DNA from: Prochlorococcus marinus XMU1410
Lineage (GTDB): Bacteria > Cyanobacteriota > Cyanobacteriia > PCC-6307 > Cyanobiaceae
Assembly: GCF_017696085.1 (NCBI RefSeq)
Contig: NZ_JAAORH010000001.1
Span: forward strand, 124,001 to 188,000
DNA: 64,000 nt
Reading direction: 5' to 3'
The position numbers and the translations under genes were made by a program. Position 1 is the stretch's first letter. Each line of letters opens with the position of its first letter. Below are positions 1,284 through 3,608 of the stretch, in pieces. The notes beneath the pieces are model-generated. The model was given only the letters and a program-made list of their open reading frames with translations. It had not been told where the DNA came from and did no database searches.

Positions 1284-1355
1284 TCCTCGGTAGCTCAGCG
1301 GTAGAGCGATCGACTGTTAATCGATTGGTCGCAGGTTCGAATCCCGCCCGGGGAG
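1284..1355 (+). tRNA. trnN: tRNA-Asn (anticodon GUU)
   Basis: A 72-base cloverleaf can be folded by eye. The acceptor strand TCCTCGG (1284-1290) pairs with CCGGGGA (1348-1354) through one G-U pair. The D-arm contains AGCTCAGCGGTAGAGC. The anticodon loop CTGTTAA carries GTT, for asparagine. The T-loop GGTTCGAATCC is canonical, and the discriminator base is G at 1355. CCA is not encoded. The last 12 bases of the gene plus the next two recur as a direct repeat at 3264-3277, which makes this tRNA a probable integration site. Confidence 0.97.
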
Positions 1356-1357
1356 TT
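1344..1357 (+). repeat. Direct repeat copy 1 (attL-like, tRNA 3' end)
   Basis: CCGCCCGGGGAGTT covers the last 12 bases of tRNA-Asn plus two bases. It is identical to 3264-3277. The position at a tRNA 3' end is standard for the core site of tyrosine-recombinase elements. Confidence 0.6.
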
Positions 1358-1382
1358 CCATTTATGTTTCAAAAGACTTCTT

Positions 1383-1408
1383 AAGACTCCATTAAGGGTC
1401 TTTTTTAT
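1383..1408 (+). terminator. Rho-independent terminator after tRNA-Asn
   Basis: The arms AAGACTC and GGGTCTT (7 pairs including one G-U) close a short AT loop and are followed by a run of T. The hairpin begins 28 bases after the tRNA. If the accessory element at 1344-3277 is a real insertion, this terminator was brought by the element, and the ancestral one may be the hairpin at 3300-3328. Confidence 0.6.
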
Positions 1409-1445
1409 TGTCAATTTTTTATTTGAACAAACTTAGATAATGAAA

Positions 1446-1487
1446 ATGGTGGGCAGATGGTGGGAAAAAGTTTATTTTAGTGGTGGG
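1446..1487 (+). repeat. ATGGTGGG iteron cluster, left side (3 copies)
   Basis: ATGGTGGG occurs at 1446-1453 and 1457-1464, exactly 11 bp apart, about one helical turn. A third copy, GTGGTGGG, is at 1480-1487. Copies two and three continue into an A-rich stretch. The same motif with the same 11-bp spacing recurs at 3173-3191, inside the other end of the insert. Such clusters fit binding sites for an excisionase or recombinase arm domain; this is inference. Confidence 0.55.
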
Positions 1488-1536
1488 AAATTTATTAATC
1501 AATCTGTCAGAATAATAATGTTAACTTGTTAAATAT

Positions 1537-2781
1537 ATGAGCAAGATATCAGAGTTAATTCATCAATTTAGCGATGATTGGGTTCCATTTCTAGAAAGTT
1601 CTAGAAAAATAAATAACGATAAATCCTTTTTCGTTATTGATAAAGAAAAATCTACTTATAAACTTTTCAATATTGATATTCCAAATGCTATACGAAGTTT
1701 TCTTAAGGACAAAAAGTTTAAAGTAGATAGTTCTTTAGGTCAAACTAATATTGCTGCTATACCTTGGATTGCGATTTTAAATAAAGAAATTACCTCATCT
1801 GTTCAAGAAGAGTTTTATATAGTTTACTTATTTTCAAGAAATGCGAAAAAAGTTTATTTATCAATCGGTATTGGGGCACAACAATTTGTAGATATATTTG
1901 GCGAGAACAAGAAATGTACCAAAAAAATTGGTTTAGCAAATCAAAGACTACTTGGTTATTGTAATTACTTAAAAAAAGGACATTCCTTTTCTCAAATAGA
2001 ATTATCAAATTCAGAAGATTTTAATTTTAATAAACGATTTAATTCAATTTCTCCTAAATCTCTACACAAAATTGCTAATTATGAGGCGGGGTGTTTATTT
2101 ACTAGAGAATATGATTTGTCAGTTGAGAGATTATCTGAAGAAGTGTTTCTTGAGGATTTGAAGGAATATCTAATTTTATATAAAAAGATGTCTGCAGACC
2201 CTGCTATAAAAAATCTTATTTCAAATTTGCCTGTTAGTGTTTTTGATCAAGATGAAGATCTCCCAAAAAATGTCGACTTAGAATACCAAATTAATCCTTT
2301 CCCACCTAATTTAGAGATAAAAAAGAGTAGAGAGCGATCCAATAAAACTTCTATAAATAATAGAAGTGCTAAAAAAAATTCAATTTCTAAACAAATAGTT
2401 GGAAAAGAAGGAGAAAAACATGTTTATGATTTTGAATATAATAGATTGAAAAAATCTGGCAATATTGATTTAGCAGAAAGGATAGTCAAGCAGTATGAGG
2501 ATAAAACTAATTTCCCTGGTTATGATATACAATCATTTGATGAATCTGGAGGGGAAATATTCATTGAAGTTAAATCTACTGAGGGATTAAAAAGAAATAA
2601 TTTCGAAATAAGTGAAAATGAAATAGCAGCGGCGAGAAAACTTAAAGAAAAATATTTTATTTATCATGTTGTAAATTCACCAAAAAATCCAAAAATTGAT
2701 GGTTTTATACAAGATCCAATAAGTAAAATCGCAAGAGAGGAAATAAAAATAGAACCCTTGAATCATAAAATAAGATTTTAA
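1537..2781 (+). CDS. McrB-N/DUF3578 plus DUF3883 nuclease-like protein, probable defence cargo
   Basis: This 414-residue protein appears to have two domains. Residues about 15-190 resemble DUF3578, the McrB N-terminal DNA-recognition type: IPWIAIL at 75-81, FYIVYLFS at 93-100, VYLSIGIGAQQF at 106-117. A basic, Asn/Ser-rich linker spans about 262-286. Residues about 287-400 look like DUF3883, a PD-(D/E)XK-like nuclease: VGKEGE at 288-293, GYDI at 328-331 and IEVKST at 343-348, giving D330, E344 and K346 as likely catalytic residues. In known systems McrB-N domains bind modified DNA, so modification-dependent restriction is a reasonable inference. No GTPase or methyltransferase lies nearby. The gene sits alone inside the tRNA-Asn insert, facing the excisionase-like gene. 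Confidence 0.75.
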   Translation: MSKISELIHQFSDDWVPFLESSRKINNDKSFFVIDKEKSTYKLFNIDIPNAIRSFLKDKKFKVDSSLGQTNIAAIPWIAILNKEITSSVQEEFYIVYLFSRNAKKVYLSIGIGAQQFVDIFGENKKCTKKIGLANQRLLGYCNYLKKGHSFSQIELSNSEDFNFNKRFNSISPKSLHKIANYEAGCLFTREYDLSVERLSEEVFLEDLKEYLILYKKMSADPAIKNLISNLPVSVFDQDEDLPKNVDLEYQINPFPPNLEIKKSRERSNKTSINNRSAKKNSISKQIVGKEGEKHVYDFEYNRLKKSGNIDLAERIVKQYEDKTNFPGYDIQSFDESGGEIFIEVKSTEGLKRNNFEISENEIAAARKLKEKYFIYHVVNSPKNPKIDGFIQDPISKIAREEIKIEPLNHKIRF

Positions 2782-2943
2782 GAATTCATTTATTGGATTT
2801 AATAGTTAAATTTATATAGTTTTTTTGCTCAAGTAATAATGCTTTGTGGTTCAGAACTCTATAGTTCTCAATTTGATGGGATTATAAAGAATTAATGATT
2901 TACAGGTAATTAAAATATTTTGGAAAAAGAAGTTAAAGACTCC

Positions 2944-2975
2944 AAAGAGGCAAATAAATGCTCCTTTATTTTTTG
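2944..2975 (+). terminator. Probable terminator after the nuclease-like gene
   Basis: The arms at 2944-2952 and 2959-2967 form a 9-position stem with one mismatch and one G-U pair around a 6-base loop, followed by ATTTTTT. It lies just before the end of the convergent excisionase-like gene. A second perfect hairpin without a T-run, AGAACT/AGTTCT with a CTAT loop, is at 2853-2868. Confidence 0.5.
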
Positions 2976-2979
2976 AAAT

Positions 2980-3174
2980 TTAGTTGTTATTTTCTTTAGT
3001 TTTTATCCAATCCTCAATATCGTTTTTCATAAAAACTTTTCTTCCTGGGGATAGTTTTATTTTGGATGGAAAGTCTCCTTTTTTGACTAATCGATTAATT
3101 GTCGATACTGAAATTCCAAGAATATTTGAAACTTCTTTAATAGTTAAAAAAGGACGATTTTCTGAGTTAGTCAT
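2980..3174 (-). CDS. AlpA/excisionase-like MerR-type helix-turn-helix protein
   Basis: This 64-residue protein is almost entirely one winged-helix domain. It reads FLTIKEVSNILGISVSTINRL (residues 9-29 by eye), then a KKGDFPSKIKL wing, GRKVFMKNDIEDWI, and an acidic/basic tail. This is the standard layout of AlpA-type regulators and of excisionases of integrative elements, which bend DNA at attachment sites and often control the integrase gene. Its start codon overlaps an ATGGTGGG repeat at 3173-3180, which suggests it may bind its own promoter. No integrase gene is present in the window. A simple DNA-binding repressor is the alternative. Confidence 0.8.
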   Translation of the reverse strand: MTNSENRPFLTIKEVSNILGISVSTINRLVKKGDFPSKIKLSPGRKVFMKNDIEDWIKTKENNN

Positions 3175-3191
3175 GGTGGGGAAATGGTGGG
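3173..3191 (+). repeat. ATGGTGGG iteron cluster, right side (2 copies)
   Basis: The copies lie at 3173-3180 and 3184-3191, again with 11-bp spacing, in the same orientation as the left cluster. They overlap the start codon of the excisionase-like gene and lie 40-60 bases upstream of the probable small RNA start. Binding here could repress the excisionase-like gene, affect the small RNA promoter, or build an excision complex. Confidence 0.55.
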
Positions 3192-3263
3192 GAAATATAT
3201 CAAAATCGCAAAATTCTTATCTCATATTCAGTCATACACCTTCAGGAAACATCACCCCGACTA

Positions 3264-3277
3264 CCGCCCGGGGAGTT
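3264..3277 (+). repeat. Direct repeat copy 2 (attR-like)
   Basis: This is a perfect copy of the tRNA-Asn 3' end, CCGCCCGGGGAGTT. Bases just to the left (CGACTACC against CGAATCCC in the tRNA T-arm) are partly similar, which could mean a decayed longer tRNA fragment. The copy also forms part of the central hairpin of the probable small RNA. Confidence 0.55.
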
Positions 3278-3299
3278 TATACATTCCAAAAAGTTATCC

Positions 3300-3328
3300 A
3301 AAGTCATCCTGTTAGGTTGACTTTTTAT
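3300..3328 (+). terminator. Rho-independent terminator of the probable small RNA
   Basis: AAAGTCA (3300-3306) pairs with TGACTTT (3318-3324). A further CC/GG pair sits inside after a T-T mismatch, the loop is TGTTA, and the 3' side runs into CTTTTTATTT. A second AT-rich hairpin, TTTGAC/GTCAAA, follows near 3332-3349. The remaining bases to 3608 show no gene I can support. Confidence 0.75.
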
Positions 3329-3608
3329 TTCTTTGACCTTTTTTGTCAAATAGTGTTTAGTCGAAGATGTAAACATGTATATTTGATAAACTTTTTAGAA
3401 CAGTATATAGAACTTCAAAAAAACCATAATTGGCCTATTTAAAAATATTGTCATAGATTAATATAATTAGTTTTAAGAACAGTAATTAGAACGCTTGCTA
3501 AATTCTCTAAAAAAACTCATAAAAACCTCTTTGATTTATTTCCATTTTTTAAAATTAATACATATTTTTTGTTTATATCCTTTGAATTACTACACCATTA
3601 AGGAAATT

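Follow-up and report, generated by a model that had tools for sequence, protein, structure and literature searches.

A 1,920-bp integrase-free element at the tRNA-Asn gene of Prochlorococcus marinus XMU1410, one of a family of cassettes with alike ends

Behind the tRNA-Asn gene of Prochlorococcus marinus XMU1410 lies a short, mobile-looking element that encodes no recombinase, and the question raised by this locus is how such an element could have reached its place and could leave it again. The window analysed here is the whole stretch of 64,000 nucleotides at positions 124,001 to 188,000 of contig NZ_JAAORH010000001.1 (assembly GCF_017696085.1, forward strand), and all coordinates refer to it. 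The element appears to be non-autonomous and one of a family. In our best explanation, to which we assign a probability of about 0.68, it is a tycheposon-like cargo element that uses the integrase of a related element in trans.

The insertion itself can be read from related genomes. The 14-bp 3' end of the tRNA-Asn gene, CCGCCCGGGGAGTT, is present in two copies (1344-1357 and 3264-3277), as the initial annotation had stated for a perfect repeat at the latter place; the copies lie 1920 bp apart from start to start, and 18 of 20 bases agree when they are extended leftward. The stretch behind tRNA-Asn was taken from 80 of 120 other genomes of the genus, picked by a match to the upstream gene, and all 80 regions contain the tRNA gene. 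In 23 of the 80, a share that is no unbiased frequency since the first 20 relatives were picked partly for looking interesting, the site is empty: the DNA that starts at window position 3278 adjoins the tRNA directly, with a junction at the repeat, base for base, in 20 of these 23. Inserted DNA stands ahead of the same flank in 26 other relatives and the window, and at 14 of these 27 sites an attachment site (att) copy immediately precedes the flank; in the remaining 31 relatives the contig is cut short, or the flank fails to align in its first part. Because empty relatives join exactly at the repeat, positions 1358-3277 are a real insertion of 1,920 bp at a tRNA gene, flanked by a direct repeat of the tRNA 3' end as in tycheposons. 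The initial annotation, which had suggested looking for such empty sites in other Prochlorococcus, named the right locus; its borders of 1284-3335 have to be corrected to a tRNA start at 1283 and an insertion end at 3277, given by the 20 exact-junction relatives. From the empty sites, the crossover probably lies somewhere within 1344-1357. Two other accounts fall with these sites, namely that the 14-bp match is due to chance or is a feature of an RNA family, and that the element is fixed in all relatives. The window's genome measures 1.63 Mb and is 99.99% complete. The features of the locus are as follows.

1283..1356, plus strand: tRNA-Asn(gtt), found by ARAGORN; integration target, its 3' end retained by the element's att copy
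1344..1357, plus strand: att copy 1 (proximal), CCGCCCGGGGAGTT
1383..1402, plus strand: hairpin resembling a terminator, at the left border of the element, from a hairpin scan
1447..1487, plus strand: three left-hand direct repeats of arm type (TGGTGGG at 1447, 1458 and 1481; steps 11 and 23)
1537..2781, plus strand: cargo gene of 414 amino acids (aa), MrcB_N (Pfam, 1.9e-28) plus NOV_C (3.8e-19), defence-like
2980..3174, minus strand: AlpA-family excisionase gene, 64 aa (Pfam HTH_17, Phage_AlpA)
3174..3191, plus strand: two right-hand direct repeats of arm type (TGGTGGG at 3174 and 3185; step 11), in contact with the alpA start codon
3264..3277, plus strand: att copy 2 (distal), CCGCCCGGGGAGTT; core DNA from 3278 on

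Between the att copies there are only two plausible genes (1537-2781 on the plus and 2980-3174 on the minus strand) and no recombinase gene; other overlapping open reading frames (ORFs), listed mechanically, are taken as noise. The earlier description of this content as a nuclease-like gene, an AlpA/excisionase-like gene, terminators and clustered repeats at both ends is confirmed. The first gene is the MrcB_N/NOV_C gene, whose protein also matches parts of PADLOC models (PDC-S36, 2.1e-24; TmtA, 4.4e-21; PD-T4-1, 7.1e-17) and may act in defence. The second encodes an AlpA-family protein that reaches 29.6 bits against the excisionase model TIGR01764 (cut-off 28.8), matches the excisionase family phrog_66 and is probably a recombination directionality factor (Xis). 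Two terminator-like hairpins were found, compared to 0.7 in shuffled sequences: the one at 1383-1402 probably replaces the terminator of the tRNA, and the other, on the minus strand, spans the distal repeat. T-rich hairpin-like stretches were seen by eye after att in other units of the family, and a promoter scan did no better than shuffles. The clustered repeats, three copies of TGGTGGG on the left and two on the right, together with the core att site give what by sequence is the layout of a lambda-type integrase substrate, with arm-type repeats on both sides. Within the genome that carries the element, its two ends are the only places with the pair pattern TGGTGGGN{3,5}TGGTGGG (reversed control: 0); across the genus, the pattern is present in 17 of 121 genomes. 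The right arm repeats (window 3172-3191) contact the alpA start codon, whereby integrase binding could control alpA.

The element has many counterparts. Units were pooled from tRNA-Asn regions, AlpA loci and the loci L174-L176 and L178. Ten loci were dropped before counting (seven repeat contigs already pooled, and L378, L381 and L382, dropped as repeats, their twins not being pooled), and the distal ends of L088 and L039 were set from the flank. Among the resulting 64 att-to-att units, 27 (809-6014 bp) carry AlpA without an integrase match, 23 carry neither, nine are shorter than 250 bp and five match an integrase, one of them (L115) with a fragment only; "no integrase" means no tblastn match at 1e-4 to the integrase of genome G021 introduced below, the only family searched per unit. 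With this single query, 50 of the 55 units of at least 250 bp gave no match. Different cargo between the same kind of repeats, which the initial annotation had proposed to look for, was found: the right-end module is alike, and the cargo includes, besides the MrcB_N/NOV_C gene of the window, a Type ISP restriction enzyme (L175) and an SBBP-repeat giant (L176) by Pfam, as well as other ORFs. The giant SBBP beta-propeller repeat protein (L176:869-5724; Pfam assignment for L176 only) has look-alike ORFs in the lone-AlpA units L088, L361 and L362. The alpA match starts 91-103 bases from att in 32 of 43 rows, in which some loci are listed twice and several misses reflect truncated matches or contig ends, and the right arms lie near the start codon. 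Tandem arrays behind one tRNA-Asn hold up to four att-bounded units with differing arm motifs (L364; three in L080). By eye, L067 (169 bp) and L037 (194 bp) hold no cargo: their left end runs straight into the right arms and att, rather like solo long terminal repeats.

The AlpA gene recurs and appears to be maintained. An AlpA profile search gave a match in 56 of 266 genomes of the genus, integrase-borne copies included. Lone-type AlpA, defined by a cut of our own at 64 bits, accounts for 45 matches in 39 genomes, of which 33 are free of internal stops. Across these 33 stop-free cores (29 distinct), the median ratio of nonsynonymous to synonymous substitution rates (dN/dS) is 0.23 in 399 pairs, all below 1, in a set that excludes decayed copies by design and whose pairs are not independent. 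By this measure, intact lone AlpA cores are under purifying selection. The cores of a recent pair (L340/L341) differ by six synonymous and no other changes.

The ends, too, recur in different hosts. The window, G107 (L067) and AG-402-N23 (L371) share, without a single difference, a stretch of 103 bp that reaches from the right arms up to and including att, and they have no cargo in common; the L371 AlpA is 84.9% like the window's over 139 bp. Likeness to the window in G107 and AG-402-N23, respectively, is 88.5% and 95.1% in the upstream stretch, 81.2% and 87.3% in the downstream flank and 90.7% and 96.4% in the next gene. Since the ends are identical while their core neighbours differ by about 4-19%, the ends move between hosts, are strongly constrained, or both.

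The arm motifs vary among elements and include TGGTGGG, TGTTGGG, TGGTCGG, TGGTCGT, TGCAGGTG, TGTTCGCT and AGTTAGTG among others. The two ends of a unit nevertheless tend to agree. A right-hand pair at an 11-bp step is found in 42 of 51 units of 300-16,500 bp, and 23 of these 42 carry at least two copies of their own right-hand motif at the left end, compared to a mean of 5.9 and a maximum of 15 matches when left ends were shuffled among units 10,000 times; this statistic treats related units as if they were independent. By our reading, 16 of the 23 matching units have left copies at a first spacing of 11-12 bp and a second of 21-23 bp.

Arms of the same kind are found on elements that do carry an integrase. 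A 10.3-kb unit at tRNA-Asn in G021 (L174) shares the arm layout and the TGGTGGG motif with the window element and bears an AlpA gene and a gene for a 437-aa protein. This protein matches the integrase family phrog_1 (6.2e-25) and no Pfam family at 0.01, and there are PF00589 matches among its relatives. Residues R275, K304, H372, R375 and Y410 are kept across 14 relatives, and we take their roles to be those of the R, K, HxxR and Y residues of the integrase family. The top structural match of a predicted model (predicted local distance difference test 82, predicted template modelling score 0.51) is lambda integrase, with an E-value of 3.8e-8 and a template modelling score of only 0.30. Among integrase-bearing elements at the tRNA-Asn att site, the arms read TGGTGGG in G021, TGTTGGGA in G035 and G111, TGGTCGGG in G050 and G162, ACTAGTC in G082 and CGTTCTGG in G224; units with TGGTGGG, TGTTGGG or ACTAGTC-like arms and no integrase match are among those seen. 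The integrase family has a match in 26 of 266 genomes of the genus, in some only as fragments, and in two genomes (L361, L376) a lone-type AlpA shares its contig with an integrase element. Integrases in phage records are distant, with less than 60% identity in all 110 records and about 23% among the ten matches listed. The motif TGGTGGGNNNNTGGTGGG occurs at no fewer than 80 loci in viral contigs and is too short to mean much alone.

On the reading that we prefer, the element would bring the DNA that the reaction needs, i.e., an att core, arm sites for the integrase on the left and on the right, a tRNA end and a terminator, plus a directionality factor of the AlpA type. In a cell that also holds a helper, namely a related, full-length tycheposon-like element, the lambda-type tyrosine integrase of that helper, for which the G021 protein serves as a model, would read the same arm sites and integrate the element, and would excise it jointly with the element's own AlpA. 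Between such visits the element would reside in the chromosome and may earn its keep by cargo such as the MrcB_N/NOV_C gene.

Several points weigh against this reading. Neither excision nor a circle, transfer or action in trans has been observed. The initial annotation had advised a search for tycheposon integrases in the same genome, and the outcome was negative: nothing in it matches the integrase family seen at tRNA-Asn, and the sole PF00589 match is a core Xer-like gene (G000:C1:471963). Genomes with lone-type AlpA are not enriched for the integrase family either (5 of 39 versus 21 of the 227 others; Fisher p = 0.56), so helpers, if used, visit. Searches of viral contigs for relatives of AlpA and the integrase, and for two longer end patterns, found nothing. 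Among the elements examined, none is an exact helper for the lone TGGTCGTG elements, and 19 of the 42 units fail the arm-match test; some of these failures seem to stem from a wrongly chosen motif or a composite unit, and some may reflect decay. One of them, L107, has right arms (CGTTCTG) that fit the G224 integrase element and a left end that does not. In five integrases, N-terminal domain and arm type track only loosely, which is no more than suggestive: same-arm pairs have N-terminal identities of 88% and 75% and other pairs of 62-79%, and G162 is nearest to G111 in its catalytic part (84%), with an N-terminal part 66% identical to that of G111 versus 75% for G050 and 79% for G021. Internal stops interrupt 12 of the 45 lone-type AlpA matches, and the identical 103-bp ends could be due to constraint. 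Hence the claim of the initial annotation that a satellite borrows its recombinase in trans stands in part: lone AlpA and a common end module recur without an integrase and arms of the same kind sit on integrase elements elsewhere; the borrowing itself has not been seen, and the element's own genome lacks a family match.

The most serious rival, which we consider unlikely, holds that elements once of the full, tycheposon-like form were stranded when a deletion removed their integrase, with ends that simply persist, AlpA and arms now decaying (or kept as a plain regulator) and any mobility arising in cis by accretion with a newcomer, of the kind known for cis-mobilizable elements (CIMEs). In its favour, G022 (L115) carries a piece of AlpA and only the C-terminal part of an integrase. 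The interrupted AlpA matches point the same way, as do the nine units below 250 bp, two of them (L067, L037) left-right end fusions by eye, and the 34 of 39 lone-AlpA carriers without an integrase family match; the available part of the review PMC5704250 describes such a route. Yet five lone AlpAs are 63-76% identical to that of the window, compared to 39% for the integrase-borne AlpA of G021, intact cores are under apparent purifying selection even in the recent pair, and a single compact layout with many cargoes exceeds what independent decay easily yields.

Two further explanations dispense with a mobile helper, and we hold both to be very improbable. Homologous recombination between the tRNA-end repeats could swap cassettes, the arms being regulatory sites of alpA; indeed, the units are flanked by repeats, the right arms touch the alpA start, and some ends look chimeric (identical ends with 85% alike AlpA). 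However, a 14-bp repeat offers little length for homologous exchange, and the left arms, though distant from alpA, show the same motif with the regular spacing given above; arms of this kind also occur on integrase-bearing elements. Similarly, the core Xer-like enzyme might move the elements, being the only PF00589 match in the genome and having similar 389-aa frames in many relatives among the matches listed, but a single core enzyme needs no multitude of arm types that resemble those of integrase elements, and Xer enzymes, to our knowledge, lack arm-binding domains.

The preferred reading, i.e., a cargo element served by a related integrase in trans, can be extended to a bolder proposal, which we put forward as tentative and would not ourselves bet on. 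Prochlorococcus might maintain a standing class of non-autonomous tRNA-Asn cassettes that fall into several groups by arm specificity, each group matched to the domain with which a particular helper integrase reads the arms. Many would carry their own excisionase, so that the cassette sets the time of its exit, and the whole would be a site-specific, cargo-swapping satellite system resembling an integron based on a tRNA, whose address codes are many and mutually incompatible.

Tycheposons were reportedly first described by Hackl et al. in Cell in 2023, for seven tRNAs. The window element shares with them the genus, the tRNA gene and the cargo, and the integrase-bearing elements at the same tRNA probably resemble the full-length kind. 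The earlier comparison to tycheposons, "but far smaller", is right as to size (1,920 bp versus 4-200 kb, as quoted in PMC10872708); unlike tycheposons, the element has no recombinase inside, and its genome has no match to the integrase family. The suggestion of an undescribed cargo-only class was too strong, as integrase-less att-flanked islets and additive islands with tRNA repeats are already in print, in the portions of the literature available to us. CIMEs have lost integration and transfer genes and kept attL and attR (PMC5704250); the window element likewise keeps attL and attR and has neither integration nor transfer genes, and its family forms tandem arrays. In contrast, it keeps an AlpA that is selected in relatives, a gene not mentioned for CIMEs in the part of PMC5704250 at hand, the arm sites of its family are like those on other elements that bear an integrase, it holds no conjugation gene, and its best reading involves use in trans, not only in cis. 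The additive flexible genomic islands of Methylopumilus, also a streamlined plankter, combine variable genes with repeated tRNA-Lys 3' ends; an end module, arm sites and AlpA go unmentioned in the accessible text of PMC10872708. In Dehalococcoides, the integration module is missing from 15 of the 31 islands at the RNA gene ssrA, and these were read as possible CIMEs, in a serine recombinase system for which the excerpt of PMC3146451 names neither arm sites nor AlpA. Clusters of attC sites lacking integron-integrases (CALINs) and miniature inverted-repeat transposable elements (MITEs) are recombinase-less passengers as well, and depend on an outside recombinase or transposase, with other enzymes and sites (PMC11389934, in part). 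What the present family adds to these kinds is a matched arm code and a retained, apparently selected excisionase; we do not claim the class as unpublished.

These elements bear on the question of how streamlined ocean bacteria exchange genes for defence and for their surface. If the preferred reading is true, much of the traffic at tRNA-Asn would take place in small, integrase-free cassettes that obey helper-specific arm codes, and arm repeats would predict which integrase moves which cassette.

A few observations stand apart. The nearest homologue of the window's cargo (45% identity) is found in G076, where the tRNA-Asn att was not found within the 4.2-kb locus (L003); by eye, the cargo relative adjoins a small gene resembling one in the G021 element, and TGTTGGG-like repeats occur there in opposite orientation. 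A 119-aa DUF7326 ORF (window 3609-3968) seems to be part of the core flank and lies outside the distal att also in relatives whose displayed regions reach that far. Finally, the same end logic appears at another tRNA in G077 (L179): on the reverse complement, at about 4068-5306, a methyltransferase-like ORF is flanked by TGGTGGG at 4282, 4294 and 4325 and at 5288 and 5300, and the first copy lies about 120 bp beyond the end of tRNA-Ser(gct) (coordinates converted by hand).

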